Assembly (NCBI GenBank): GCA_000961575.1
Contig: LADP01000047.1
Span: forward strand, 1-32,144
DNA from: Peptococcaceae bacterium BRH_c8a
Lineage (GTDB): Bacteria > Bacillota > Desulfotomaculia > Desulfotomaculales > Desulfallaceae
DNA length: 32,144 nucleotides
Reading direction: 5' to 3'
Position 1 is the first letter of the stretch, and every line of letters begins with the position of its first letter. Both the position numbers and the translations under genes were made by a program. Positions 882-17,419 of this stretch are shown piece by piece. The notes under the pieces are model-generated. The model was not told where the DNA came from, made no database searches, and was given only the letters and a program-made list of their open reading frames with translations.

Positions 882-3800
882 TTAGACATCTTCTATAATA
901 ACTATTTGAATTGAGCAATTTACTTCATGTCCGGCCTTTTGAGTCAAAATAATATCCGTCCCGGAAGTGGATACATCCAGTACATCGGATATATCGGTAT
1001 CTGCTGCCAAAGCAGCCCTTATTCTTTCCGCCACCATAACGGCTGAATCATGGGCAACTACAGTCACCGGTACAACCTTATCGAGCTCGTACTGGGTGAC
1101 TTTGACTTGTATAGTCTCAGACACAGTTGATCCCGTCAAAACCGGCGTGGTGCTGATAGCTGCTACCGGTGCATAACCTGGTTGGCTCTCGCCGCCAACA
1201 ACGTTAAATATTACACCAGTGTTATCCGGGTCACGAAACTGAATAGTAACCGGCTTATCCTCTTCTTTTGTTTTATTGGTTACCATGATGTACCCGGGAC
1301 TGTAATTATTTATTGCTTCGTAAGCAGAATTAAATTCTGCATTATCATTAAGAGCCTGTGCTAATCTATCCGCTGCAAGAATAGTTCCTTCGGGCATAGC
1401 AACCGGTGCTGTGACGGTGATATTAATATCCCCATCATTAAACAACAGCTCCAACGTTCCATTATTCATGTACGCATTACTACTGTTTGAATAGCCTATA
1501 GCGTTTATTTCATATTGCCCCGGGTACCCTGGTCTGGTCATGACACTTGCCCCCAGTGTAACATGGGTAAGTTCCGCCAGTGGTATATTATCCGTTTGCC
1601 ATTGGAAATACGGATAAGAAGCCGGGTCGGTATCCGTCGTCCAGACAGTTCCGAATTCCCAACCGGTAAAAGTTTCTTGGTCGATCATCTCCGCGGTTGT
1701 TTTTGGTACTCCTTTGCCGGTATCCGATTGGCCGGTGGTCTCGGTATCGTAGCAGCTGTTGGAAACTGTGTAGTCGCCAGTCAGATACCCAATCAGGCCG
1801 CCAACGTCACTGCTTCCCGAAACAGAACCCAATGCATAGCTATTGGTAATAACCTGTCTGTTATCCCCTGCCAGACCGCCGACACGGCTATTGCCTGTTA
1901 CATCTCCCGTGGCATAGCAGTTGTCAATTGTACCTAGATAGTTGTATCCCACCAGGCCACCTACACTTAAGTAGGTGCTTACAACATCCCCGGTGGCATA
2001 ACTTTCACTAATTAAACCATTATTATAACCTACCAAACCGCCGATAAATTCGTTATATCCTCCGATGCCCGTTACACCACTTGTTGAGTAGCACCTGTTA
2101 ACTTCACCATCACTATGGCCAACTAAACCGCCGATACGTTTCGTACCTGTAACTGTTCCGCCAGAATGGCTATTTTCAATTGTTGTCAATGATATGTCAC
2201 CCACCAGCCCGCCAACATAGGACGGACCACTGACATTTCCTGAAGCAAAGCAATTCTGTATTAGGGTATCTGCCGCAGCTTCACCGACCAACCCGCCGAC
2301 GTCGCCGTAGCTTCCCGTGACGCTGCCTGTTGCGTAACATTCATTGATGTTGGTTGTACTGGCATCACCAACAAGACCGCCAACCCGGTCACTCCCGACA
2401 ACTGCGCCCGTTGAATAAGAACTCTCTATATCTCCATAGGAATCATTACCAATCAGGCCGCCTACCACTTCATCACCAGTGACGTCGACACTGCTATAGC
2501 AGTTTAGAACACTTCCGGATTCAGCTAAATATATATCCCCGCTATATGAGCCATTTTCACCAATCAGACCTCCGACATAGGAATAGGTGCTCTCGACTTC
2601 TCCGGTGGCATAACTGTCTTGTACTACGCCATAGTTAATTCCTATTAAGCCGCCGACATTCCTATATCCGGCAAGATCCACGTTGATTGACGAACAATCT
2701 GACACTGTGCCGTAATTCACGCCCACAAGGCTGCCGATCTCATGTTTCCCGCTTAGAACGGCATCTTCCAAAATAATATCCCGAAGTGCCGCGTCCTTGG
2801 AAGTGTGTCCAAACAGACCGGTGTACCAGCCATTATCCGGATCAGAAAAGGTCATGCCGGTAATCTTAAAACGGTCACCGTCGTATGTTCCTGTGAATTT
2901 GGTACTGTTATTCCCAACGGGTACCCAACCTTTTCCTTCGTTATACCCGTCTCCACCAACACTTAGATAATCGGTCAAATCGATGTCTGCGATCTGAATA
3001 AAATGCTTGTCCAGATATTCATGAACCTTGTCCAACTGCTCCGCCGTGGCCACTTGATAGGGGTTTTCCACCGTACCGTCACCGCCGGCAAATGGACCTG
3101 GTTCCACCACTGTAACTAAAGCGCTGCCTTTCACTTCCGAACCGTCATTGGCAGTGGCCTTGACTGTAACCGTACCCGCACCCGTCCCGGTCAATAAGCC
3201 GTTGGTATCAATGGCCGCTGCTCCGGTACCGGCTTCAACACTCCAGCTTACACTTGGATCAGTGGCATTGGCAGGTTCAACCGCCGCTGTCATTTGGAGG
3301 TTCTGTCCAACAACAACGGTTGTCGCCTCTCCTTCGCCCGATACGGTTATTGCCGTGACCGGCACTGCTTCAGATATTACCGTGTACGAAAAAGTTGCTG
3401 TACTGCTGGCATTCCAACCGCTTTTTAATGCCTTTGCCTTAATGGTCACGGCTTCGGTTATGGTTATTGGGGAGGAATACTGGGTACTCGTTGTGGTTGG
3501 TTCACTACCGTCGGTTGTATAGCGTATGGTAGCCCCGGTTGTGTTTGTGCTCAAAACGACTTCGGTGCCGGCCTGTACCGCACCGGATGCGGGGCTGGCC
3601 GTGGGTGTGGCCGCGGTACCGGTACTGATGCCACCGCCACCACCTCCGGAAGATGTTACCAGGGCGTAAGTAGTCCTGATTGTGCCGATGGACTGGCTGC
3701 CTGCCGTCTCGGCTTCGATATTGTCGAGCAATATTTCAAGCCCGGATGTCGGCTTGTTGTTTTTGTAACCGCGTACCTTGTATTTTTTTCCTGCCGGTAC

Positions 3801-4814
3801 GTATACTTTAAAATCTCCGGAACCATCCGTGGAGGTTAAAAAGGTAGGGTTGGTGGTAAAGAACAGTTTGGCGTTCTTTACGGCACTGCCGTTTTTGTCC
3901 ACCAGCCGCCCGCTGATGAGAGTGCCTTCAGCCAGCGCAAGATCCTGAACCACACCATCCCCGGTAAAGGATACGTTTGCGGCATAGGCCACGAATTTGT
4001 CTTTGGCGGCGGTGATGTCGTAAGTTCCGGCGTCCACCTGAAAAGCGTATTTTCCGTCCCTGCCGGATGTTGTTTCATTAATCGGTTCAATGCCGTTTTC
4101 GGCAAAGAGCAGCACAACAGCGCCCTCCATTACCTTGCCATCCATTGTAATGCTGCCCATAATACCCTCAGATATAACTGGGGGGGTGCGTGTGGTATTT
4201 GACGCCCGATCCAGGGTTACCACTGCCTCTGCCCTGGTGATGGGGTTGGTACCTTTGAAGGTGCCGTCAGTGTAACCGCTCATGATACCGGCAGTCGACA
4301 CAGCGTTAACCGCATCCCGAGCCCAGGGAGCGATGGATTCGGCGTCGGCGTAGTTTTTATCTGCTGCACCGGCGCCAAGCTCAAGCAGTCTGGTTACTAT
4401 TGAGGCCACTTCATGCCTGGTGATAGGGTTTAAGGGCCTGAAGGTGCCGTCGGTGTAACCGGCACAATAACCCTCAGCACTGGCCATCGCCACTTCGGCG
4501 TAAAACCAGTCAGAGTCTTTGACATCCTTGAAGTCCACCCGGACTGTTTTGTCTTTTTTCCCGAAGGCTCGGTTGGTCAGAGCCACAAATTCCGCCCGGG
4601 TTATCTGGTTGTTGGGCCTAAAAGTGCCATCGGTATAGCCCCCGGCGAGTCCCCTGTCCACCCAGTCGTTAATTTGCCATTCCGCCCAGTTGCCCTTGAT
4701 GTCCGAAAACTGAGCATAAGCCGGTTGGACGGGCATTGCGCCAAATACTATGGAGCAGAGGAAGATAAGCGTCAAGGCCAGTGAAAACTTTTTTGATTTT
4801 AGTCTGTGCTGCAC
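882..4814 (-). CDS. S-layer-homology surface protein with GLUG repeats
   Basis: The start is GTG at 4814 behind AAAGGGTGA. Residues 1-34 form a Sec signal peptide ending AYA. Three SLH domains follow (about 36-85, 95-145 and 155-204), each with a GYTDGTF motif, which bind pyruvylated secondary cell-wall polymer. Next come two carboxypeptidase-regulatory-like beta-sandwiches (218-295 and 296-378), a glycine linker (389-395), a chitobiase C-terminal-like domain (403-478) and a bacterial Ig-like (BIG2) domain (485-570). About 12 GLUG repeats occupy roughly residues 690-1015. The last 230 residues are unassigned beta-rich sequence. The protein should sit on the cell wall and expose a long repeat stalk, probably for adhesion or matrix contact; the ligand is unknown. 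The receiver-like gene upstream may share its transcript. Confidence 0.92.
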   Translation of the reverse strand: MQHRLKSKKFSLALTLIFLCSIVFGAMPVQPAYAQFSDIKGNWAEWQINDWVDRGLAGGYTDGTFRPNNQITRAEFVALTNRAFGKKDKTVRVDFKDVKDSDWFYAEVAMASAEGYCAGYTDGTFRPLNPITRHEVASIVTRLLELGAGAADKNYADAESIAPWARDAVNAVSTAGIMSGYTDGTFKGTNPITRAEAVVTLDRASNTTRTPPVISEGIMGSITMDGKVMEGAVVLLFAENGIEPINETTSGRDGKYAFQVDAGTYDITAAKDKFVAYAANVSFTGDGVVQDLALAEGTLISGRLVDKNGSAVKNAKLFFTTNPTFLTSTDGSGDFKVYVPAGKKYKVRGYKNNKPTSGLEILLDNIEAETAGSQSIGTIRTTYALVTSSGGGGGGISTGTAATPTASPASGAVQAGTEVVLSTNTTGATIRYTTDGSEPTTTSTQYSSPITITEAVTIKAKALKSGWNASSTATFSYTVISEAVPVTAITVSGEGEATTVVVGQNLQMTAAVEPANATDPSVSWSVEAGTGAAAIDTNGLLTGTGAGTVTVKATANDGSEVKGSALVTVVEPGPFAGGDGTVENPYQVATAEQLDKVHEYLDKHFIQIADIDLTDYLSVGGDGYNEGKGWVPVGNNSTKFTGTYDGDRFKITGMTFSDPDNGWYTGLFGHTSKDAALRDIILEDAVLSGKHEIGSLVGVNYGTVSDCSSINVDLAGYRNVGGLIGINYGVVQDSYATGEVESTYSYVGGLIGENGSYSGDIYLAESGSVLNCYSSVDVTGDEVVGGLIGNDSYGDIESSYSTGAVVGSDRVGGLVGDASTTNINECYATGSVTGSYGDVGGLVGEAAADTLIQNCFASGNVSGPSYVGGLVGDISLTTIENSHSGGTVTGTKRIGGLVGHSDGEVNRCYSTSGVTGIGGYNEFIGGLVGYNNGLISESYATGDVVSTYLSVGGLVGYNYLGTIDNCYATGDVTGNSRVGGLAGDNRQVITNSYALGSVSGSSDVGGLIGYLTGDYTVSNSCYDTETTGQSDTGKGVPKTTAEMIDQETFTGWEFGTVWTTDTDPASYPYFQWQTDNIPLAELTHVTLGASVMTRPGYPGQYEINAIGYSNSSNAYMNNGTLELLFNDGDINITVTAPVAMPEGTILAADRLAQALNDNAEFNSAYEAINNYSPGYIMVTNKTKEEDKPVTIQFRDPDNTGVIFNVVGGESQPGYAPVAAISTTPVLTGSTVSETIQVKVTQYELDKVVPVTVVAHDSAVMVAERIRAALAADTDISDVLDVSTSGTDIILTQKAGHEVNCSIQIVIIEDV
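1745..2760 (-). repeat. Array of about 12 GLUG repeats
   Basis: Within the SLH protein, VGGLIG or VGGLVG recurs about every 25-30 residues. Each copy is followed by a Cys/Ser-Tyr-Ala/Ser-Thr-Gly pattern such as CYATG or SYATG. This is the GLUG motif of bacterial surface proteins and adhesins. Copies differ in sequence, so the array is old rather than freshly duplicated. Confidence 0.85.
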
Positions 4815-5571: not shown

Positions 5572-6180
5572 TTAGCTGTTTTTAATGCCTGCCAGTAAAA
5601 GGTCAAAGTGCTGTAAAACCTCTTTTTTTAAATCAAAATCGGGGTAACGTGCACACCATTCAAAGGTCATTCCCCTTATGCTCATGACGCAATGGTTTGA
5701 AACGGAATCTATAGTAAGTGTTTCCCTAAACTCCCCCTGCCGGACTCCCTGCATAATAATCTGGCTGTATATTTGATTAAGTTTGCGGTTATAGTTAAGC
5801 AACCCCTGCGTACCGTCAGCTTTTTTAAGCGCAGCCTCATAAAGAGTTCTCATCACATCAAATTCGAGATCGTTTACCAGCACGTCTACAATTTTTTCTG
5901 TTACCAGCAGCAGCATCTTTGATGGCTTAATATCAGGGGGAATAGAATTAAAGAACTCCTCATAACCATCATCTATTGTGCTGACATAGTCCGCAACCAA
6001 TGAAAACTTGGATTTAAAATGAACATAGAATGTCCCTACGGATACTCCGGCCGCCTTTACGATGTCATCTACAGTGAAATTATCAAGACCGCGCTTTCTC
6101 ATTAACTCCATAGTACATTCATAAATTCTCCTTTTTGTCTCAGCCGCCTTCAGTTTTCTTGAATTTGACCTAACCTTCAT
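5572..6180 (-). CDS. TetR/AcrR-family transcriptional regulator
   Basis: The 202-residue protein has an N-terminal TetR HTH. It begins KRRIYECTMELMRKRG, continues with NFTVDDIVKAAGVSVGTFY and ends VHFKSK. The C-terminal half is helical and would bind a small ligand that I cannot name. I chose the ATG at 6180 because AAGGGG lies 8 bases before it; an in-frame upstream ATG 13 codons earlier has no ribosome site. It has its own sigma-A-type promoter and repeated boxes between promoter and gene, the usual layout for self-repression. The divergent gene at 6570 is a possible second target. Confidence 0.9.
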   Translation of the reverse strand: MKVRSNSRKLKAAETKRRIYECTMELMRKRGLDNFTVDDIVKAAGVSVGTFYVHFKSKFSLVADYVSTIDDGYEEFFNSIPPDIKPSKMLLLVTEKIVDVLVNDLEFDVMRTLYEAALKKADGTQGLLNYNRKLNQIYSQIIMQGVRQGEFRETLTIDSVSNHCVMSIRGMTFEWCARYPDFDLKKEVLQHFDLLLAGIKNS

Positions 6181-6523: not shown

Positions 6524-6569
6524 ATACTTAGTTTGTTAATTATTGTTTATATTAAAAGGGGGAGAAATA

Positions 6570-7934
6570 ATGGTAAAGAAAAAAAGCTTCAAAAGATCTT
6601 TAAGCATCACCCTATCGTTACTCTTGCTGTTTGGGCTTGGATTGACCGTCCTGTGGACTGAAAGAGCAGATGCTGAGGATAGATACGGTAAGGTCGTTGA
6701 AACATTTTATCCGGGCCAGCACACTTGGGCGGTCCCACCTGGCGTTACTGAGGTCTTTGTCGAAGCCTGGGGCGGTGGTGGAGCAGGTGGAGGAGTTGAT
6801 GCTACAAGAAGCAGTTTATTTATACAGGTAGGCGGAGGCGGTGGAGGCGGTGCATACGCAAGCTCAACCCTCCTTGTAGAACCTGGTGAAACGTTAACCA
6901 TTAAGGTAGCGGATGAGACACCTGCACATACCAATGGTATTGATGGTGAACATTCCTTCGTGGGACCGGACACAAACCCCGAGAATGCATTTGTTCTCGC
7001 TGCAGGTGGTTCCGGTGGACAGAATATCACCCATGTTGGTGACACTTTCGCAGCGGGTGGTGCAGGTGGGTCTAAAGCAGAGTCTATTGGCGATATTGTA
7101 ATTGCCGGGGAAGCTGGGGATGATGGCAATTCGATCGATCATAATAATTTTGAAGTTTATTCGGGAGCAGGCGGTGATGCAGGCGGAGACGGCGGAGCAG
7201 GTGGCGCGGGGATTGGTGGGGTTCGTCCGCTTACTAACCCGGGAGAGGCACCCGGTGGAGGCGGCAGTGGAGGATTTTTTGGCCCAAGGCAACATCGTAG
7301 TGAACGGGGTGACCAAGGCGCAAGAGGCGAAGTAGAATTTACGTACGCTCGGCCAGAGGGGTATATCATTAACCTAATGGTGACGGATGAAAATGAGGAA
7401 CCAATTGATGGAGCAAATGTGGATGTCGGGGACATTAGGAGAATCACCAACTCTTACGGTGAGGCTTTGTTCGTAGGTTTAGCGCCTGGCACGTACGATT
7501 ACACCGTGAACAAGGCTGGATATGAGTCCGCCGAGGCTCAGATAACCATTGTCGATGACGACGTCAACCTAATGATTGCCATGAAAGAATCTACCTTCGA
7601 TATAACCTTTACTGTCTTCGAAGCTAATGAGCATTTGCTCCAAGGCGCTGAGGTTTACTTAGGGGGTAGGAACACGCAGGTAACCGAAGAAGCAGGTATA
7701 GTTACATTCCCAAGTGTTGCACCTGGCAATTACTATTACAGCGTGAGCAAGGCTTGCTATGAGACCATCGAGGACTGGGTTAATATTGTTGATAATGACA
7801 TCAACCTACAGATTACACTGGAAGTGGAAGAGGAACCAAACGCTATCATCTATGTATTATCTAACGCAGCTGGAGCAAATGATGGTGATTCATGGGAAAA
7901 TGCCTTTACATACCTCCAATACGCTTGGGAATAG
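6570..7934 (+). CDS. Glycine-rich secreted surface protein, N-terminal part (frame-disrupted gene)
   Basis: The start is ATG at 6570, behind AGGGGGAG. Residues 1-35 form a signal peptide (KKKSFKRS, then a leucine-rich core). About residues 50-250 form a glycine-rich domain with many GGGG and GGAGG blocks. Two PEGA/CNA-B-like sandwiches follow (about 262-340 and 345-425), each with an APGTYDYTV- or APGNYYYSV-type core. The frame then enters a start-of-beta-helix segment (IIYVLSNAAGANDGDSWENA) and stops at 7932-7934. The same domain continues in the -1 frame from about 7915, so the gene has lost one base near 7918. If not a sequencing error, this product ends inside its third domain. It is exported; its role is unknown. 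Confidence 0.75.
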   Translation: MVKKKSFKRSLSITLSLLLLFGLGLTVLWTERADAEDRYGKVVETFYPGQHTWAVPPGVTEVFVEAWGGGGAGGGVDATRSSLFIQVGGGGGGGAYASSTLLVEPGETLTIKVADETPAHTNGIDGEHSFVGPDTNPENAFVLAAGGSGGQNITHVGDTFAAGGAGGSKAESIGDIVIAGEAGDDGNSIDHNNFEVYSGAGGDAGGDGGAGGAGIGGVRPLTNPGEAPGGGGSGGFFGPRQHRSERGDQGARGEVEFTYARPEGYIINLMVTDENEEPIDGANVDVGDIRRITNSYGEALFVGLAPGTYDYTVNKAGYESAEAQITIVDDDVNLMIAMKESTFDITFTVFEANEHLLQGAEVYLGGRNTQVTEEAGIVTFPSVAPGNYYYSVSKACYETIEDWVNIVDNDINLQITLEVEEEPNAIIYVLSNAAGANDGDSWENAFTYLQYAWE

Positions 7935-8878
7935 CTGAGCCGGGGCAACAGATCTGGGTTGCAAAGGGTACCTATCATCCCGTTGGAAACGAGTACGGGC
8001 ACTTCGAGATGAAAAATGGTGTCGCAATCTACGGAGGCTTTGCCGGAAACGAGGAGCCCGAGTTTGACCTGAGTAACCGGGATTTTATAAGTAATGAAAC
8101 CATCCTCAGTGGTTTCCCATACAATTATCATGTTTTTTACCATGATAATTTGCAACTGGATGATGCGTTATTGGATGGGTTTACTATCACAGAAGGCAAC
8201 GCCGACGGCAACAACTCTGGGGCTAAAGGGTTTGATTTCTATGGCGGCGGTATGGTAAACATAAATAGCAGCCCGACACTTACCAATATCATCTTCAGCG
8301 AGAATAGGGCCTACTATGGCGGCGGGATGTATAACGATGGATCCAGCAACCCAACACTTATTAATGTTACTTTTAACGAGAATTATGCTAAGTATTTTGG
8401 CGGCGGGATGCATAACGATGACAGCAGCCCAACACTTACCAACGTCACCTTCAGCGGGAATAGGGCTGATTATTATGGCGGCGGGATGTATAACGTTGGA
8501 TCCAGCAACCCCAAAATTGTAAATTCTATATTTTGGGGTAATACGGCGGGATCCGATGGCGTCGATTATTTCAACATTCCCGGCTGCTCATCTATTATCA
8601 GCTACAGCTTAATAAAAGGTTCAGGCGGCAGCGGTGTTGGTTGGGATGACAGTCTAGGAATTGATGGCGGCGGTAACATTGATGCAGACCCCTTGTTTAT
8701 TTGGCAGAACGGCTTAAGGCTTCATAAGGGCTCTCCAGCCATTGATGCCGGCACAAATGCCACCTTTGATGAAGATGGTGTCGCTTATGGAGTTACTACT
8801 GACTTCCCTTGCGTTTTGTTAGTGAAATTATGGGCGCAAAGGTGGACTGGGATGAAGCAACCCGTCAAGTTACGATAA
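7892..8878 (+). CDS. Beta-helix (Pmp-like) domain, continuation of the disrupted surface protein
   Basis: Restoring one base near 7918 gives LQYALGIAEPGQQIWVAKGTY, which carries straight on from the frame before it; this frame has no good ribosome site of its own. The segment is a right-handed beta-helix of the chlamydial polymorphic-membrane-protein type. GGGMYN or GGGMHN rungs of 25-27 residues appear at 8243, 8318, 8399 and 8477, with TNVTFSGN-like turns between them. It ends in the usual LHKGSPAIDAG motif, and then the frame runs into unrelated residues after VTTDF near 8805. It probably forms the outer stalk of a secreted protein. Confidence 0.7.
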   Translation: MGKCLYIPPIRLGIAEPGQQIWVAKGTYHPVGNEYGHFEMKNGVAIYGGFAGNEEPEFDLSNRDFISNETILSGFPYNYHVFYHDNLQLDDALLDGFTITEGNADGNNSGAKGFDFYGGGMVNINSSPTLTNIIFSENRAYYGGGMYNDGSSNPTLINVTFNENYAKYFGGGMHNDDSSPTLTNVTFSGNRADYYGGGMYNVGSSNPKIVNSIFWGNTAGSDGVDYFNIPGCSSIISYSLIKGSGGSGVGWDDSLGIDGGGNIDADPLFIWQNGLRLHKGSPAIDAGTNATFDEDGVAYGVTTDFPCVLLVKLWAQRWTGMKQPVKLR

Positions 8879-8923: not shown

Positions 8924-8965
8924 AAAGCCGTAATTCCTTACCCCACAAGGAACTACGGCTTTTTC
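8924..8965 (+). terminator. Rho-independent terminator after the disrupted surface gene
   Basis: A 16-bp stem with a single A-C mismatch (8924-8939 with 8947-8962) has a 7-base loop and runs into T. The mirrored A-run makes it potentially active in both directions. Confidence 0.85.
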
Positions 8966-9129: not shown

Positions 9130-12100
9130 ATGAAAAAAAATTCAATGGAGGAGCCTGCATTTAAGGAGACCACCCTTGACGAAACAAGGAATAACGCAAA
9201 TTTAACCGTTGTGGTAAAGGATTTTAATAGCGGGGCTTTAATTTCGTCATTTAAATTCATTGTTAACGAAAATAATGTAGGAGACCCGCAAGTCGATCTG
9301 CCACTGGATGAGCGAGACCCCAATCTGTTTCCTTCATTAAAACCCGGTGCCAGCCATAGCCCGGTAGTTGCCACGGGTGAAGCTTCGGAAACCTCAGCGC
9401 CTGTGGTAGCACTGCCAAACGGTAAATACTTGGTTTCGGTATTATCTCCCCGCTACAAAATGGGTGGCAATTGGGTAACTATGGATAATGCGGATAAAAC
9501 ATTGGAAGTTGCCCTGTACCCCAACCCTTTACCCCTGTCCAAAATAAGGGTGCATGTCTTTCATGATAACAACCCGGTCAACGGTGAAGACGATATCCCG
9601 CTGGAGAGCGGGCTGGTGGGTTTCAGCATTATTATCGGGGACGCGGTTGGTGAAGTAACCGTAGACTATTTCGGCAACCCGCTGGGCACAGAATATGAGC
9701 GGGATGAGTTCGGCAATTTGATTTTGGAGGCCGGTAATCCCATTCCTATCCCGGGTACCGGAGGAAAAATACTCACTGACGATAACGGGGACGCGCTGAT
9801 CGACAACCTTCCCCCCGGCAAATACGGGGTGCAGGCCATCCCGGCGGACGGCACGGACTGGATTCAAACAACTACTATTGAAGGTACCCATACCATAGAT
9901 GCCTGGATTGAGGAAGGTAATGACGGCTACAGTCCCAGGGAAGGGTTTAAGATGCCCCTGGTATGGTTCGGATTTGTCAGGCCAATGGGGTTTGGGCCGC
10001 CCAGCCCCTGGGAAACCGGGCTAATTACGGGCCGGGTGCGGGCTGTTATTGAATTTATCCCGCCTTTTAAACCGCTAACTTTAGGGGGGCCGGTGGATCG
10101 TCCCTGGATAGCCCTTTGTGACATCGGAGCCAATGACCAGCAGGTTTATACCGGGCGTGGTGACAGTAACGGCAACTTCATCATTGAGAACGTGCCGCCG
10201 GGTTTGTATCAGATGGCTATTTGGGACGAACCGCTGGATTACATTATCTCCTTCCGCACGGTACAGGTGCAGCCGGGTGAAACCGTCGATATGGGTGACA
10301 TCGGTATTCCAAGATGGTATGGCTACATTAAGGGTACAGTTTTTAATGACCTGAACAGTGATGGAGTGCGTGATCCCGGCGAGGACGGTATACCAAATGT
10401 TGCGGTAAATACCCGTTTTAAAGACGGCAGCATTCAGTACAGCACTATCACAGATATGCATGGCAATTATGCGTTTAATGAAGTATTTGAGCTGGAACGC
10501 TTGGCAGTGGCCGAGGTGGATTTTACCCGTTTTGCCCGTACCGGAGCTACGGCTACTCCGGACTATGGGATACCGGTGCCCAACCCGGCTAACCCGGATG
10601 TTTTATGCCGGGACGACCGCGGTAATTACGTCAGGTGTTCAGAGACCTATGACGGTGTCCTGACTCTCGCAGAGCTTACCTGGGCCGCCAAAACCAACCG
10701 GATTGACTGGGGTAAAAGGCCGTATAACAGGGGGGAAAACGGCGGCATTTCCGGCATGGTTTATTATGCTACCATGCGCAACGAGACCGATCCCAGATAC
10801 GAAATAGCTGAAGAATACGAGCCCGGCATTCCCAATGTAACCCTTAACCTTTATACGGCGGTTGTAGACGCGGAAGGTAAGGTAATCCAGGGGGATTTAA
10901 TCAACACCGCTGTCACTGACGCCTGGGAGCACCCCACGGACTGTATGGACCCGGACGGCAACCTTGATGAAAAATGTATCGAGGTACCCAACATATCAAA
11001 CCAGATTAAACCCGGTGTTTTTGACGGTGGTTATGCATTTGAAACTTATTGGGACCCATACTACGGGCACCCCGAAGCGGTAGAAAAACCGCTCCCTGCC
11101 GGTACGTATATCGTGGAAGTGGTACCGCCTGTGGAATATAATGTACTGGACCGGGACGGTTCTGTTAATACGGAACAGGGCGATGACTTTGTCGGCACCG
11201 CTCTCTTCCGCATGCCCCCTCCGCCATATCTCCCCACTACACCTCCGGACTTTGATGTTTACAAGAAAGTGGTCAATGTTGTCGATGGAATGAATGCTGT
11301 GGCAGACTTTTTCCTTTATACCGATGTCCCCGTGCCCGGCCGTATTGTAGGGTTTTTGCTGGACGATGTCAACCTGGAAACCGATCCGAATTTTATCTAC
11401 TTCGGGGAAAAAAGGGGCATCCCGAACACTCCGGTAGGCATACGGGACTTTACCGGTAGGTTAATCACCACGGTGCACTCGGATATTAACGGTATTTTTG
11501 AAGTGCTGCTGCCTTCCACTTATACCCGCAATGTACCCACCCCTTCAGGGGTAGCGCCGGGCATGTACCAGGTTATCGGCAATGATCCGGGGGATCCGGA
11601 TCAGCCCAATGTTCACTATAACCCCAATTACCAGTCTTTAAAGCTGGTTTTCGACCTATGGCCCGGGAAAACGACCTATGCCGATGTGGCCCTATTCCCG
11701 ATTACGGCTTTTACCGGCACACCCGGTGGGCAATTCTCACAACCTCCGCAATGCAGTATCCCGGCAGATACGCCTCAAATATTCCAGGTAAGCCGTGTGG
11801 AGGTAAATTTACTGGACCCCAATGACGAGGACCGTGCGGTTAATATTGCCGGCACCGGTTTCGGAGATGCGCCGGGCCAGGTAACACTGGACGGGCAGGA
11901 AATCAGCATCCTGGGATGGACCGAACAGTCGATTCAAGCTTTTGTACCCCAAGGTTTTAGTGCCGCCGGCCCTGGCCCTGTACAATTATTGGTCACAAAC
12001 GCCGCCGGAAATACAAGCAGAAAGGGTATCACTTTCCATCTCAGCCGGCAGGGCGCGTACCAGCCCAATATAGCGAGGGTTCAAGAAGACGGCACCGCTG

Positions 12101-13728
12101 ACTATACCACTATTCAGGAAGCCATCGACAATGAACCCGACGGGACAATTGTAGTTGTGTCGGCTGAAACTTATTATGAAAGCCCTATACTCTATAAGAA
12201 CATTAAGCTGCAGGGTCTGGGGCCGGGAGGGATACGGCCGGACGGTACTGCGGTTGCCGGTTCCGTTATAGATGGCCGCTTCTACCTTTCCTATACCAAC
12301 CAGTGGATTGATAAACTGGCCGGTATAGATTTTGACGGCCCGGAATTGGTGCCGCCAGGCGAGGTTAAAGAGATCACCAGGGGGCAAGTTCTGACGGTAG
12401 TTGCCCAAGCGGGGGCTTTTAGCGACACGTTCAGGCCCCAGGTGGACGGTTTTAAGATCACGGGCGCCAGGGGTGAAGATGGCGGCGGCATATACGTAAA
12501 CGCGCACTGCAACCACCTGGTGATTAGTAATAATATCATCCAGAGTAACGGCGGCGGTTTCGGTGGCGCCATTAATATCGGCAGAGCTTACGTGGGAGAC
12601 AATTATAACGATAATATCCTGATCAGCCACAACCGTATACTAAACAACGGCGGTATCAGTTTGGCCGGCGGTATCGGCATCTTTAACGGCGCTGACAATT
12701 ATGAGATTGCCAATAACGATATTTGCGGTAATTACTCAGCTGAATATGGCGGGGGCTTATCGCACTTCGGCTACAGCCCGGGCGGGAAAATCCACCACAA
12801 TCGTATTCTATTTAACGCCTCGTTTGATGAAGGAGCCGGCGTGTTTGTGGGCGGAGAACAGCCTGTCCCACCGGAAACGCTTACCACCGGTTCAGGGGAA
12901 GTCGATATCTACAATAACCTTATCCAGGGTAACCTGGCCAACGACGACGGCGGGGGCATCCGGCTGCTGCAGCCCCTGGACTACCGGATCAATATTTATA
13001 ACAATGTGATTGTAAATAATGTCTCCACCGATGTGGGCGGCGGTATAGCCTTGGATGACGCTTGTAATGTCGTCATAGTCAACAATACTATCGCCAAGAA
13101 CATTACTACCGCCACGGCAGAGGACAGTGACGGTCTACCCCATGCCGCCGGTTTGGTGAGCGAACCAAACAGTGCCGCCTTCCAGGCTTACCTGGACAGT
13201 AACCAACCGGGCGCGCCCACTTTCAGTGACCCGGTGCTGTTTAACAACATTTTTTGGGATAACAGAGCAGGCATTTTTAACCAAACCCTTAATGAGGGCC
13301 GGGGAGGTATCAGCGGCATCGGGGCCGACGGTGATCCACAACCCGTTAATATTATGGATTTAGAGGTGTTTGGCACCGCGGCACTGTTAAGTCCCCAGTA
13401 TTGCAGCCTGTCGGAACCATATACCGGAGGCAGCCAAAATGTTTACGGTGACCCGGTGTTTGCGGGTGCATATGACACCGCGCTAACGGCCGTGGCTTTT
13501 AACATGGAACCTAATTTTAAATCGGTTAAAATAGTGACCGTTATTCCCGAACTAACCGGTGATTATCACCTTACCAATAGTTCTATTACGGTTATAAACC
13601 GGGGTACCAATGCAATCACCAGGGAAGACGAAGTGTTCCAGGCCCCACAAACAGACTTTGATGACCGCCCCAGGCCACAGGGCGCAGGCTATGATATTGG
13701 TGCCTATGAACATGTTGAACTTCCCTAG
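9130..13728 (+). CDS. Giant SdrD-B / IPT / beta-helix protein, first gene of the multicopper operon
   Basis: The ATG at 9130 follows GAGGAGG by 7 bases. The 1,532 residues begin with polar sequence and show no signal peptide, LPxTG or SLH anchor. Several carboxypeptidase-regulatory/CNA-B-type sandwiches fill the first half (NFIIENVPPGLYQM near 350; SdrD-B core VFNDLNSDGVRDPGEDG near 405; others near 540 and 740). An IPT/TIG fold lies at about 887-965 and a right-handed beta-helix with Pmp-like GGGI and GGGF rungs at about 980-1460. The end, DDRPRPQGAGYDIGAYE, is typical of Pmp-type proteins. It is probably a scaffold or surface fibre. The next gene begins 21 bases downstream, so it should be made together with the three oxidase-like proteins and may hold them in place. 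Confidence 0.88.
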   Translation: MKKNSMEEPAFKETTLDETRNNANLTVVVKDFNSGALISSFKFIVNENNVGDPQVDLPLDERDPNLFPSLKPGASHSPVVATGEASETSAPVVALPNGKYLVSVLSPRYKMGGNWVTMDNADKTLEVALYPNPLPLSKIRVHVFHDNNPVNGEDDIPLESGLVGFSIIIGDAVGEVTVDYFGNPLGTEYERDEFGNLILEAGNPIPIPGTGGKILTDDNGDALIDNLPPGKYGVQAIPADGTDWIQTTTIEGTHTIDAWIEEGNDGYSPREGFKMPLVWFGFVRPMGFGPPSPWETGLITGRVRAVIEFIPPFKPLTLGGPVDRPWIALCDIGANDQQVYTGRGDSNGNFIIENVPPGLYQMAIWDEPLDYIISFRTVQVQPGETVDMGDIGIPRWYGYIKGTVFNDLNSDGVRDPGEDGIPNVAVNTRFKDGSIQYSTITDMHGNYAFNEVFELERLAVAEVDFTRFARTGATATPDYGIPVPNPANPDVLCRDDRGNYVRCSETYDGVLTLAELTWAAKTNRIDWGKRPYNRGENGGISGMVYYATMRNETDPRYEIAEEYEPGIPNVTLNLYTAVVDAEGKVIQGDLINTAVTDAWEHPTDCMDPDGNLDEKCIEVPNISNQIKPGVFDGGYAFETYWDPYYGHPEAVEKPLPAGTYIVEVVPPVEYNVLDRDGSVNTEQGDDFVGTALFRMPPPPYLPTTPPDFDVYKKVVNVVDGMNAVADFFLYTDVPVPGRIVGFLLDDVNLETDPNFIYFGEKRGIPNTPVGIRDFTGRLITTVHSDINGIFEVLLPSTYTRNVPTPSGVAPGMYQVIGNDPGDPDQPNVHYNPNYQSLKLVFDLWPGKTTYADVALFPITAFTGTPGGQFSQPPQCSIPADTPQIFQVSRVEVNLLDPNDEDRAVNIAGTGFGDAPGQVTLDGQEISILGWTEQSIQAFVPQGFSAAGPGPVQLLVTNAAGNTSRKGITFHLSRQGAYQPNIARVQEDGTADYTTIQEAIDNEPDGTIVVVSAETYYESPILYKNIKLQGLGPGGIRPDGTAVAGSVIDGRFYLSYTNQWIDKLAGIDFDGPELVPPGEVKEITRGQVLTVVAQAGAFSDTFRPQVDGFKITGARGEDGGGIYVNAHCNHLVISNNIIQSNGGGFGGAINIGRAYVGDNYNDNILISHNRILNNGGISLAGGIGIFNGADNYEIANNDICGNYSAEYGGGLSHFGYSPGGKIHHNRILFNASFDEGAGVFVGGEQPVPPETLTTGSGEVDIYNNLIQGNLANDDGGGIRLLQPLDYRINIYNNVIVNNVSTDVGGGIALDDACNVVIVNNTIAKNITTATAEDSDGLPHAAGLVSEPNSAAFQAYLDSNQPGAPTFSDPVLFNNIFWDNRAGIFNQTLNEGRGGISGIGADGDPQPVNIMDLEVFGTAALLSPQYCSLSEPYTGGSQNVYGDPVFAGAYDTALTAVAFNMEPNFKSVKIVTVIPELTGDYHLTNSSITVINRGTNAITREDEVFQAPQTDFDDRPRPQGAGYDIGAYEHVELP

Positions 13729-13749: not shown

Positions 13750-14748
13750 ATGGCCACAGTAATCAAGCGATTCGGTGCTACAGACGGGTGGGTAAGCATG
13801 CCGGACGGCACCGACCATTATATATTTGGCTTTGTTGATATCAGCGTAGTGCCTGAGAATCAAATTTTCCAGTACCGGGGTAAAGCTACTCTGCTGGCCC
13901 CTTTACTGGATGTTTACGAAGGTGATGAGGTTTATTTAACCCTTACTAACCTGGGTTTCCCGAACAGGCCGGATTTGGATGACACCCATACCATCCACTG
14001 GCACGGTTTCCCCAACCAAATCCCCTTATGGGACGGTGTTCCTGAAGCATCCATTTCTGTGCCGGTGGGCAGGGATTTTACTTACTATTACCAGCCGTTG
14101 GACCCGGGTACCTATATCCATCACTGCCATTTTGAGCCTGTTGAACACATTCAAATGGGTATGGTTGGTCCTGTAACGGTACGGCCAAAACTAGAAAAAG
14201 AACTGGGACTTAAGTTTGCTTATAATGATGAAAATACAGCGTATGATCGGGAAGGTCTTATCTTTCTCACGGAATTGGACCCCAGGCCCCATCATCTGGT
14301 GGCCAACGTGCAGGAATTTGACTGGACGGAGTACAGCCCGGAATACTGGTTGATAAATGGGCGAAGTTATCCTGATACGGTGAAACCGGCTAACGACCAG
14401 TCTATGCCCCAACAGCCCTTTTCTGCGCTGGTTGAGGCATACCAAGGAGAAAAGGTGTTGCTCCGGTTCGTGAATATTGGGTTTCAGCAACACTGCCTGC
14501 AGATACCCGGAGTACCTTTAAAGGTTGTGGGATTGGATGCCCAGCAGCTACGCGGGTATAACGGTGAGGACATTAGCTATTGGAGAGATGTTATATATAT
14601 TGCCGCTGGCCAAACGATGGATGTCATCTTCACCGCCCCGCGTGCAGGAATATATCCCCTTTATAACCGCAACCTCAATAAAAATACCATAGCGGGAACG
14701 GAATTCGGCGGCATGGTCACGGAAATAAGGGTGTCTCCAAAACCTTAA
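13750..14748 (+). CDS. Two-domain multicopper-oxidase-like protein A (copper ligands in domain 1 only)
   Basis: The ATG at 13750 is 8 bases after AAAGGAG. The 332 residues form two cupredoxin domains. Domain 1 has H80-TI-H83-W-H85-G and H125-C126-H127-FEPVE-H133-IQ-M136-G-M138, which supplies a full type 1 set (H80, C126, H133, M) and half of a trinuclear cluster (H83, H85, H125, H127). Domain 2 has lost its ligands: QQHCLQIPG stands where HPxHxHG is expected, and no HxH motif precedes the final FGGM. This is a type-1-in-domain-1 (type C) arrangement without its partner half. No signal peptide is seen. The missing half is present in the next gene. Confidence 0.88.
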   Translation: MATVIKRFGATDGWVSMPDGTDHYIFGFVDISVVPENQIFQYRGKATLLAPLLDVYEGDEVYLTLTNLGFPNRPDLDDTHTIHWHGFPNQIPLWDGVPEASISVPVGRDFTYYYQPLDPGTYIHHCHFEPVEHIQMGMVGPVTVRPKLEKELGLKFAYNDENTAYDREGLIFLTELDPRPHHLVANVQEFDWTEYSPEYWLINGRSYPDTVKPANDQSMPQQPFSALVEAYQGEKVLLRFVNIGFQQHCLQIPGVPLKVVGLDAQQLRGYNGEDISYWRDVIYIAAGQTMDVIFTAPRAGIYPLYNRNLNKNTIAGTEFGGMVTEIRVSPKP

Positions 14749-14810
14749 CCTTATTAAAAATCTTTAGTGCCGGCGGTTAAACTTGGGTGAAAACCAAAGG
14801 AGAGAATAAA

Positions 14811-15965
14811 ATGCCTGTAATAGACCTTTGGGCAAAAGACGGCTATTTAAGTACCCCTGACGGCAACAGTATTTATTTTTGGGGCTTTTCCAAAAGTGAA
14901 ACCGGCCCTGCTCAATTACCGGGACCTCACATTGTTGCCAGGCAGGGAGAAACAATTAATATTAACCTATACAATACATTGACCGAACCGGTTTCCATTT
15001 CTTTTTCCGGCCAGTCAGGGATAATGGCGGATGGGCAACCGGTACAGCCGCAATATACCGACGGCAAACTTTTGTCCTTTTTCAACCACGCTGAACCAGG
15101 TGGTATGGTGTCGTATACATTTACGCCTTCCTTCCCCGGAACCTTTATTTACGAAAGCGGGACTAACCCGCACAAGCAAGTTCCTATGGGGTTGTACGGG
15201 GGAATGGTGGTGCGGCCTGCTGATTACAACCCGGATGCCCGGGAGTTTAAAACCGCCTACGGTGCCGGCACGGATACGGAATACGACCGGGAATATTTGC
15301 TAATCACCTGGGAGATTGATCCTGACATGCACCAGGCGGTTGAGGAAGGTAAGCCATACCAGGTCAGCAAATTTTTGCCCCGCTACTGGACATTAAACGG
15401 GCGCTGTGCGCCGGATACCATGTTGATGGACGGTTTAGATTATCTCCCCCACCAGCCGTACGGCTCTATGATTATGGGGCAGCCCGGAGAAAAAATTTTA
15501 ATGCGCTACATCGGGGCCGGTATCGAGAATCACCCCCTTCATCCACACGGTACCCATACCAGGGTGGTGGCGGTGGACGGACGATTGCTAAGAAATGAAA
15601 ATGTCGATTTATCTTTTAAACGTTTTACGGTCCTGGTCGGAGCCGGCCAGACTTACGACCAAATTTATCAGTGGGATGATTTAGGCTACACCACCCAAAA
15701 CCCCATCCCTACAATTTTACCCAACCTGCGGAACATGGGCGTAGGAGATGCCGGGTGGACCATGTGGAGCGGGAGCCCCTACCTCGGAGTCAAAGGAGAT
15801 ATCCCCGTAGGGGTAGTTTCCTATAATGAATTCGGTGAATATTACTTTATGCTGCACTCCCACGAGGAACTACAAATTACTAACTGGGGTGAGTTTCCGG
15901 GTGGAATGATGACAATGGTAGCCATATACCCGTCATTATCCCCTGCCGTTGGAATTTTAGAGTAG
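14811..15965 (+). CDS. Two-domain multicopper-oxidase-like protein B (trinuclear ligands in domain 2 only)
   Basis: The ATG at 14811 follows AAAGGAGAG. The protein has 384 residues and no signal peptide. Domain 1 has a cupredoxin fold but no copper ligands: SISFSGQSG replaces the HWHG region and YESGTNPHKQVPMGLYG replaces HCH-x5-H. Domain 2 keeps H241-PL-H244-P-H246-G and H349-S-H351 before FPGGM. These four His are the domain-2 share of a trinuclear cluster. The Cys of HCH is Ser, so no type 1 copper is possible in this domain. B thus carries exactly what A lacks. It lies 62 bases after A and 24 before C in the same operon. Confidence 0.87.
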   Translation: MPVIDLWAKDGYLSTPDGNSIYFWGFSKSETGPAQLPGPHIVARQGETININLYNTLTEPVSISFSGQSGIMADGQPVQPQYTDGKLLSFFNHAEPGGMVSYTFTPSFPGTFIYESGTNPHKQVPMGLYGGMVVRPADYNPDAREFKTAYGAGTDTEYDREYLLITWEIDPDMHQAVEEGKPYQVSKFLPRYWTLNGRCAPDTMLMDGLDYLPHQPYGSMIMGQPGEKILMRYIGAGIENHPLHPHGTHTRVVAVDGRLLRNENVDLSFKRFTVLVGAGQTYDQIYQWDDLGYTTQNPIPTILPNLRNMGVGDAGWTMWSGSPYLGVKGDIPVGVVSYNEFGEYYFMLHSHEELQITNWGEFPGGMMTMVAIYPSLSPAVGILE

Positions 15966-15989
15966 TACTTCGAAAAAGGAGTGAAAGGC

Positions 15990-16997
15990 ATGGCGACAAT
16001 AACTAGGGTTCTGCAAGTTAGTACCGGGTCCTTATCTTTGCCCGGCGGGAATATTCCCTTTTGGGGTTTTGCCGATGCCCTAAGGGTTATTCCCCAGCTG
16101 CCCGGTCCGATTATCGAAGCAACAGCCGGCGATCGAATACTAATATTTTTAATGCGAAATTTCTTCAGACCCATAGGAGAACCAATCTCAATATTATTTC
16201 CGGGGCAGGAGAATGTACTGGTCAGAAAAATTCCCGGAGGGCCTTTTATCTTAGAACCGGTTAAACCCCAATACTCTTCGGGTAAAATAATATCCTTTAC
16301 AAACTTTCTGGATGAATTACAGGACCTTATAATCGAGTATAGCTTTATAGCCAGAAAGGCCGGAATTTATTTGTATGAAAGTGGTACCAACCCGGAAAAA
16401 CAAATTCAGATGGGGTTATATGGGATAATAATAATTAGGCCGCCTGGTTATAACAATCCCGGTCACCCCAACTTTAAAACGGCCTACGGCACCGATACAA
16501 ATTCATTTTTTGATGTGGAAAAGATATTGGTTTTGAGTGAAATTGACAGTGTTATGCATAATGATGTTCTCCCCAATGTCTATTACGATATGCTTAAATT
16601 CAAACCGGATAACTGGGTAATAAACGGCCGTTCTTTCCCGGATACAGTTAATGAGGATAACAATTCAAGCCAGCCCTACGGTTCCCAAATAAATTGCCGG
16701 GTGGGGCAGCGAGTATTATTAAGGATAGTAAACGCCGGGTTGCAAAACCATACACTTAATTTGGGTGGCTTCGTAGGGCTGGTAGTTGCCGAGGACAGTT
16801 TCCCCTTAAAAACCTCCACACTGGATGCTACCTATGAGAAAACAAGCCTGACCCTAGGCTCGGGACAAAGAATGGACATAATAATTACCCCGAATGCCTC
16901 GGGTGAATATTATTTGTTTGACAGAGGATATCATCACCTAGTGAATAATGACCATTTCCCGGGAGGTATGATGACTAAGATAAACGTAAGTAGTTAA
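15990..16997 (+). CDS. Two-domain multicopper-oxidase-like protein C without copper ligands
   Basis: The ATG at 15990 lies 8 bases after AAGGAG. The 335 residues align along their length with A and B (NFKTAYGTDT, WVINGRSFPDTV, PGGMMTKI). Domain 1 has SILFPGQE and YESGTNPEKQIQMGLYG; domain 2 has QNHTLNLGG and FDRGYHHLVNN. None of the multicopper HxH or HCH motifs remains, so it cannot bind the cluster, yet the fold-defining residues are kept and the frame is intact. A structural subunit in an A-B-C assembly is the simplest reading. There is no signal peptide. It is the last clear gene of the operon. Confidence 0.85.
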   Translation: MATITRVLQVSTGSLSLPGGNIPFWGFADALRVIPQLPGPIIEATAGDRILIFLMRNFFRPIGEPISILFPGQENVLVRKIPGGPFILEPVKPQYSSGKIISFTNFLDELQDLIIEYSFIARKAGIYLYESGTNPEKQIQMGLYGIIIIRPPGYNNPGHPNFKTAYGTDTNSFFDVEKILVLSEIDSVMHNDVLPNVYYDMLKFKPDNWVINGRSFPDTVNEDNNSSQPYGSQINCRVGQRVLLRIVNAGLQNHTLNLGGFVGLVVAEDSFPLKTSTLDATYEKTSLTLGSGQRMDIIITPNASGEYYLFDRGYHHLVNNDHFPGGMMTKINVSS

Positions 16998-17224: not shown

Positions 17225-17419
17225 CAACTGATTGAAACATTTTGGGGAACGGTTGTAGGATTTTTAATAGATTTTACCGTTGGTGGAATGTTCGGCGTAA
17301 TCCTGGGTTTATTAATAGAATGGCGGGGGCTGGGCTATACTGGTCCAGGCTTTTTTTACTTAAATATCATAGCCATTTTTGTTGACATATTATATGTCAG
17401 GATGTACAATGACATATAA
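17225..17419 (+). pseudogene. Fragment of a small membrane protein without a start codon
   Basis: The frame after TAG at 17222 reads 64 residues to TAA at 17417. It includes TFWGTVVGFLIDFTVGGMFG and VILGLLIEWRG, a hydrophobic glycine-rich segment typical of membrane proteins. There is no usable start and the last part overlaps the promoter palindromes. It is probably the remnant of a gene displaced when the resistance operon arrived. Confidence 0.4.

Follow-up and report, generated by a model that had tools for sequence, protein, structure and literature searches.

Three adjacent genes of the multicopper oxidase type, A, B and C, occupy positions 13,750 to 16,997 of a 32,144-nucleotide stretch of Peptococcaceae bacterium BRH_c8a (contig LADP01000047.1; hereinafter, the window), and the copper ligands of a single active site seem to be divided between two of them. 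Are the three proteins parts of one enzyme? An initial annotation, made from the letters of the window, proposed that A and B together rebuild one type C active site and that C is a structural third subunit. Here, we compare the locus with its homologs, and the sequence data make it likely that the three proteins are distinct subunits of a single ring-shaped enzyme, a two-domain multicopper oxidase descended from type C, with one site between domain 1 of A and domain 2 of B (A1:B2; other domain pairs are denoted likewise).

Copper ligands of A, B and C

A, B and C are consecutive separate genes on the + strand, each with its own stop codon and ribosome site; the frames, starts and ribosome sites are intact, as described initially. 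The genes and residues are located in the window as follows.

13750..14748, + strand: gene A, two-domain cupredoxin, 332 amino acids (open reading frame (ORF) reading, Pfam, ligand reading)
13987..14163, + strand: A codons H80 to M138, with every domain-1 copper ligand (letter-by-letter reading)
14668..14670, + strand: A R307, putative ion-pair partner of C E130
14811..15965, + strand: gene B, two-domain cupredoxin, 384 amino acids (ORF reading, Pfam, ligand reading)
15153..15155, + strand: B E115, putative ion-pair partner of C R312
15540..15548, + strand: B H244-P-H246, first domain-2 trinuclear HxH
15672..15830, + strand: B-specific domain-2 insertion, about residues 288-340, ~53 residues
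15855..15863, + strand: B H349-S-H351, second domain-2 trinuclear HxH
15990..16997, + strand: gene C, two-domain cupredoxin without a copper site, 335 amino acids; E130 in domain 1, R312 in domain 2

A letter-by-letter check of the residue numbers bears out the initial reading of the ligands in all three proteins. Domain 1 of A has the type-1 copper ligands H80, C126, H133, and M138, and the four trinuclear histidines H83, H85, H125, and H127, and its domain-2 site is dead, reading Q-P-Y-N-R in the window, with R307 at the place of B H351. In B, domain 1 is dead, with E115-S116-G117 instead of His-Cys-His, and domain 2 keeps its four trinuclear histidines, H244, H246, H349, and H351. C of the window has no ligand set in either domain. 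Hence, a homotrimer of A or of B would have no trinuclear site, as domain 2 of A and domain 1 of B lack the second half-site.

Multicopper oxidase families of Pfam match both halves of A, B, and C, some of the matches being below the Pfam cut-off. In the phmmer comparison with solved structures, 2zwn and 3g5w are the top two for A (2zwn best) and for C (3g5w best), and 3g5w is the best match of B, with 2zwn fifth. Judged by their ligands, these two are type C two-domain multicopper oxidases; among solved relatives whose type-1 site lies in domain 1 they are the closest, and both read H-D-H where domain 2 of B has H-S-H. Thus, H-S-H is what is expected of a type C-like domain 2, and the one statement of the initial annotation that has to be withdrawn, a Cys replaced by Ser in B, was a misreading. 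The insertion in domain 2 of B has no counterpart in A and C, and with mean pairwise identity 0.735 it is conserved like the rest of the domain (0.743 without the insertion); it may cover the copper site or the substrate path.

Conservation of the ligand split

The genome of the window contains A, B, C and one weak relative (L059). In the class sample, B finds a match at 1e-5 in 19 out of 113 genomes. The phylum sample of 398 genomes contains 52 that match the B profile at 1e-8, ordinary oxidases included, and a scan of genome contigs yielded 14 loci, among them those of Desulfallas sp. Bu1-1, Tepidibacillus decaturensis, and Thermincola. Following ORF reading and deduplication (rows L089, L092, L093, L094, L097, and L098 were dropped as second copies of L035, L038, L042, L040, L044, and L045, respectively), A, B, and C are present together in 30 genomes, in one piece in 29 and over two contigs in G176; the 27 of them with genome handles span 15 families, so that the set covers at least 15, phylum and class samples together. 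Many loci come from metagenome bins, and in G013 and G005 the contig end falls inside B.

All 12 ligands are found in the same split between A and B in 29 out of these 30 genomes (28 of the 29 one-piece loci and G176). In the deduplicated set, the type-1 ligands of A are intact in 32 out of 33 proteins and its domain-1 trinuclear histidines in 31 out of 33, and none of the four domain-2 trinuclear histidines is seen in any of 32 A proteins with a readable domain 2. The four domain-2 histidines of B are complete in 29 out of 31 proteins, the exceptions being L054 (H349N) and the fragment L056, whose two readable histidines are intact. No complete half-site was found in either domain of any of 36 C proteins. 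Single relic histidines in domain 1 of five B proteins (L042, L051, L101–L103), and one or two relic domain-2 histidines in 11 out of 36 C proteins, suggest that the ancestors had full sites. The split is far beyond chance. The genome search proposed in the initial annotation thus returned the same three-gene set with the same split, random ligand loss was not observed, and, contrary to the refuting outcome named there, no paralogue is usually absent from the homologous loci.

Several proteins were set apart from these counts. L059 of the same genome and L057 and L058 of other genomes of the class have other ligand patterns and are ordinary relatives outside the set. A 1086-amino acid frame holding A in L104 is a chance long ORF overlapping D, the gene upstream of A, in another frame, and not a fusion. 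C carries a C-terminal extension in several families (L043, L050, L051, L052, L053, L054, L055, L056); of three tested, that of L043 has a fibronectin type III match above the Pfam cut-off, and those of L050 and L053 have weaker matches below it.

Phylogeny, domain conservation, and selection

A tree of 98 sequences built with FastTree resolves each of A, B, and C as a single clade (supports 0.999, 0.964, and 0.991, respectively), with B as the sister of C (0.999). It omits A_L038 because of masked bases, C_L047 because of its frame shift, and the fragments B_L056, A_L107, and C_L107. Since each protein forms one clade, the ligand split most simply arose once and was then kept.

The two domains are conserved in a mirror-image manner. 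With ligands excluded, mean pairwise identity over 26 loci (the 29 one-piece triplets minus L038, L047, and L054) is 0.766 for domain 1 and 0.597 for domain 2 of A, 0.607 and 0.741 for those of B, and 0.492 and 0.540 for those of C; domain 1 is more conserved than domain 2 in 324 out of 325 locus pairs for A, seven out of 325 for B, and 89 out of 325 for C. The ratio of nonsynonymous to synonymous substitution rates (dN/dS) by domain, calculated for three pairs, is lower in domain 1 than in domain 2 of A, and lower in domain 2 than in domain 1 of B, every time. If A1 and B2 form the sole working interface, a pattern of this kind is to be expected. For the entire genes, dN/dS over eight pairs is 0.057–0.258 for A, 0.067–0.364 for B, and 0.107–0.191 for C, the frames in pairs with L090 and L101–L103 being taken from stop to stop with some non-coding codons included. 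C is under purifying selection.

A 29-row alignment of single and joined chains put A and C on B and was discarded; the placement of rows by MAFFT was tested.

Residues at the vacated interfaces

Two positions are informative about the interfaces that have lost their ligands, namely, position 125, the first histidine of the HCH motif in domain 1 (A numbering), and position 351 in domain 2 (B numbering). At position 125, B has Glu in 25 out of 30 proteins and His in five; C has Glu in 33 out of 35, the other two being one Gln and one misread residue in the frame-shifted L047. At position 351, Arg is found in 31 out of 32 A and 34 out of 36 C proteins, and His in all 31 B proteins. Over 28 loci (the 29 one-piece triplets minus L047), the ring A1:B2, B1:C2, C1:A2 yields His:His in 28, Glu:Arg in 22, and Glu:Arg in 27 loci, respectively, while the reverse ring order yields His:Arg in 26, Glu:His in 27, and Glu:Arg in 22. 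Both sides of an interface have changed together in L041 (Gln in C1, Thr in A2) and L042 (His in B1, Gly in C2). The Glu/Arg positions thus agree with no ring order other than that with A1:B2. Given the sister relationship of B and C, two separate origins would be the simplest account of the Arg in A2 and in C2.

The register of position 351 does not depend on an alignment: when the position is located by its constant distance from the GG motif, the residues read are unchanged in the 31 A, 30 B, and 32 C proteins with the correct motif, and the spacing in 3g5w and 2zwn is identical to that in A, B, and C. The motif was missed, or another copy of it was hit, on one or both sides in A_L053, A_L091, A_L095, A_L100, A_L107, B_L056, C_L047, C_L052, C_L055, C_L090, C_L100, and C_L107.

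Fate of A in genomes without B

Four genomes keep a part of the unit without B (G155, G004, G470, and G276). In G155 (L105), A and C are adjacent, and no B or D match is found in the genome; A of this locus has lost three out of four trinuclear histidines (H83Y, H85E, H127Y) and kept H125 and every type-1 ligand (H80, C126, H133, M138). In G004 (L055), a genome of 72% completeness, B and D likewise find no match, and nearly all ligands of the unbroken A frame are gone. Thus, in both genomes with unbroken A and no B, A has lost trinuclear histidines.

Proposed organization and alternative explanations

Taking into account domain conservation, the Glu/Arg positions, the loss of A histidines in genomes without B, and purifying selection on C, all of which support the composite site and the heterotrimer proposed initially, we consider it likely that the three proteins form an obligate A:B:C heterotrimer that would be the equivalent of ceruloplasmin in three genes. 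Complementary loss would have reduced it to one catalytic interface and turned the two vacated sites into Glu–Arg pairs dictating the ring order, Arg having arisen independently in A2 and C2. In such a 1:1:1 complex, domain 1 of A, with type-1 copper and four histidines, and domain 2 of B, with the other four, would build the only trinuclear cluster; an electron donor would be oxidized at the type-1 copper of A, and the A1:B2 cluster would reduce O2. The other two interfaces would be B1:C2 and C1:A2, the cluster being gone at both, where a Glu (B E115, C E130) and an Arg (C R312, A R307, respectively) would sit at the place of two histidines that had held one type-3 copper and would lock the ring order. 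C would close the ring, and D would be a constant partner, most likely a structural scaffold. The complex may be assembled in the mother cell and then deposited on the spore surface.

A number of observations weigh against this model. AlphaFold2 predictions have low confidence both for B alone (14 alignment rows; predicted local distance difference test (pLDDT) 40, predicted template modeling score (pTM) 0.39) and for a tethered read-through A-B-C chain (six rows, the A third covered by one sequence only; pLDDT 41, pTM 0.30); because these models are too poor to use, the A1:B2 interface is taken from the published homotrimers. That positions 125 and 351 served a single type-3 copper is taken over from the equivalent histidines of ascorbate oxidase. 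The pair at B1:C2 is His:Arg in four out of 28 loci (L101–L103 of one genus, and L051), Glu:His in L052, and His:Gly in L042. The loci share ancestry, and hence the counts are of non-independent events; the tree is rooted on distant relatives. L054 combines an intact A with the H349N variant of B and has no D, and C of L047 is frame-shifted. L106 (G470) retains C and about a third of D, A and B being missing. In L107 (G276), which lacks B, the frame-shifted A still reads the domain-1 ligands, and C is cut short. G480 (L108) holds most of D, cut off near residue 1127 inside a 184-kb contig, and no A, B, or C was found in the 13 kb read around it. SpoIVA is found in 17 out of 18 carriers (G434 is not among the matches) but also in 336 out of 398 genomes of the phylum sample; it does not discriminate, and its presence was discarded as evidence for a link to spores.

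Two of these genomes call for a remark: the SpoIVA match of G276 is unusually weak (5.3e-112), perhaps due to sporulation decay or poor assembly, and G442, of the same genus as G480, carries the full unit.

The composite A1:B2 site could also exist in a complex of other stoichiometry, e.g., A:B:B or A:A:B, in which case C would act apart from it, as a scaffold or in assembly. The sister relationship of B and C, which share the E-S-G motif, makes an earlier two-subunit enzyme of A and the B/C ancestor likely, and C is the least conserved of the three and persists in L106, where A and B are missing. This arrangement seems unlikely: B1:B2 would oppose Glu to His and A1:A2 would oppose His to Arg, all interfaces being matched only if A, B, and C are each present once, and C accompanies A and B in every locus examined, albeit frame-shifted in L047. 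That the composite site is not an O2-reducing trinuclear center but a nitrite reductase-like or other copper site is suggested by matches of A and B to nitrite reductase models of NCBIfam, and of A, B, and C to nitrite reductase chains in PDB. The type-2 copper of NirK uses three histidines, with no histidine following the cysteine, whereas A has histidines on both sides of the cysteine (H125, H127), which together with both HxH pairs of B brings the count to eight, and the best solved match is an oxidase for each protein, 2zwn for A and 3g5w for B and C; we regard a site of that kind as highly improbable.

The same degree of doubt, if not a slightly greater one, applies to the notion that an old homotrimeric oxidase survives as the decaying relics A, B, and C, with A now being only a type-1 (blue) copper protein. 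A of L105, with its type-1 ligands only, would fit such decay, as would the state of L055, L106, L107, and G480; against it stand the complementary split unchanged in 29 out of 30 genomes, dN/dS below 0.4 for A, B, and C in all eight pairs, and the fact that A1 and B2 are the most conserved domains. The heterotrimer with one A1:B2 site is the reading retained below.

Gene D and the surrounding sequence

The following features flank the triplet.

9130..13728, + strand: gene D, 1532 amino acids; repeats of the SdrD_B and carboxypeptidase-regulatory types, a weak match to TIG, and a C-terminal part resembling a beta helix
8992..9019, + strand: sigma-K-like promoter match (AC, 17 nt, CATAATAT) upstream of D; weak evidence
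8924-8962, - strand: terminator-like hairpin before the sigma-K-like match
17327..17348, + strand: terminator-like hairpin downstream of C
882-4814, - strand: protein of S-layer type carrying SLH, GLUG, and Big_2 domains, located upstream of the D-A-B-C unit
6543-8878: two further genes before D, with glycine-rich, PEGA, carboxypeptidase-regulatory or polymorphic-repeat matches

D is a conserved fourth gene of the A-B-C unit. It directly precedes A in 28 out of 29 one-piece loci (the exception is L054) and in G176, being split over two frames or interrupted in L034, L035, and L039. All 18 triplet genomes of the phylum sample have D, as do three genomes beyond the triplet carriers (G276, G470, and G480; 21 in total); in the class sample, D occurs in 13 genomes, 12 of which also match B, while the remaining one (G016) holds only a fragment of D. 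When 35 loci with flanks of unequal length were clustered by ORFs (frames of at least 90 amino acids, 25 largest clusters), A/B/C-type proteins were found in 35 loci and D in 30, and the remaining clusters were reverse-frame or out-of-frame shadows, or groups present in at most five loci; the two genes at 6543-8878 are absent from the shared-neighbor clusters. The Pfam beta helix is matched in the L037 copy of D. NosD-like matches of D are weak, and no copper role is claimed for it. D of L035 has one in-frame stop (TAA) at 5814-5816 in an otherwise intact D-A-B-C locus (the same record as L089), and D of L034 lacks its middle part.

A sigma-K-like site precedes D in six out of 20 loci vs. 14 out of 271 control genes (Fisher p 0.001, the loci not being independent); the pattern is loose, and the test covers 20 script-recognized D starts from related loci. 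In an earlier version with base shuffles, for which some D starts were misplaced, the count was nine out of 31 vs. 1.8 on average in the shuffles. Terminator-like matches in the region are no commoner than by chance, 11 found vs. 10.9 in shuffles. Strongly hydrophobic N-terminal stretches were not found in A, B, C, or D of the window by hydropathy, no signal-peptide predictor having been run. Together with the sigma-K-like site, this weakly suggests an enzyme of the spore layers; the spore surface may be the likeliest setting, but, as with the substrate, this is a guess.

Comparison with known systems

The initial annotation knew of no described enzyme of this kind, and, likewise, no bacterial heteromeric multicopper oxidase or nitrite reductase with paralogous subunits turned up in the titles and beginnings of abstracts listed by the searches, mostly in the open-access literature; within it, a three-gene arrangement with a shared site appears to be undescribed. 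A paper on fungal oligomeric oxidases (PMC10673308) contains the word heterotrimer once. As a precedent for a heteromeric nitrite reductase, 9cck was rejected, its two chains being identical over 101 domain-1 residues and probably representing one protein in two lengths. In the proteolipid ring of the fungal V-ATPase, duplication followed by complementary loss fixed the subunit order, as is proposed here for A, B, and C; no enzyme active site is known to be split in that ring, unlike in A/B/C.

The locus differs from other copper enzymes with similar folds. Unlike type B oxidases (small laccase), it has the type-1 cysteine in domain 1 of A and not in domain 2, where B reads HSH, and unlike NirK, A reads HCH and B keeps both HxH pairs. 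The Bacillus Mnx system (MnxE, MnxF, MnxG), a spore-associated multicopper oxidase that needs co-encoded partners and whose Mn oxidation is done by spores, offers a comparison (PMC5622069). There, MnxG is the sole multicopper oxidase, and MnxE and MnxF are reported to be without known homologs, whereas A, B, and C are paralogues that would share a site. Neither does the neighborhood resemble the Mnx locus: the widely shared neighbors (frames of at least 90 amino acids) are only D, A, B, and C, with no small MnxE/MnxF beside a large MnxG. If the location holds, an O2-reducing enzyme on the spores of anaerobes would be of interest.

Two-domain oxidases, which are divided into types A, B, and C, form trimers, and two protomers contribute residues to every trinuclear site (PMC13151041; PMC3192119). 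Like type C oxidases, the proteins studied here have two cupredoxin domains; type-1 ligands in domain 1 are present in A and absent from B and C. Unlike in type C oxidases, no chain holds both trinuclear halves: A lacks the domain-2 half, B the domain-1 half, and C both. A type C oxidase is one gene, a homotrimer, and three like sites; here, there would be three genes, deficient subunits, and one site. In this last respect, the locus is closer to ceruloplasmin, hephaestin, and MnxG-like proteins, which comprise three two-domain units with at most one trinuclear site and relic ligands at the lost ones, and for which a triplicated two-domain ancestor with three sites, at most one of them surviving, has been proposed (PMC3600357). 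Counting ligands over A, B, and C likewise gives at most one trinuclear site, but the six-domain oxidases are one chain, whereas each of A, B, and C is encoded on its own, with a stop and a ribosome site for every gene.

If our interpretation is true, the operon shows site reduction of the ceruloplasmin type with the three units still separate, and the order of site loss and the transition from a homomeric ring to an obligate heteromeric one become testable. As judged by ligand count, the A-B-C enzyme would combine the working of type C oxidases with the site number of ceruloplasmin, having the full set of defining features of neither.

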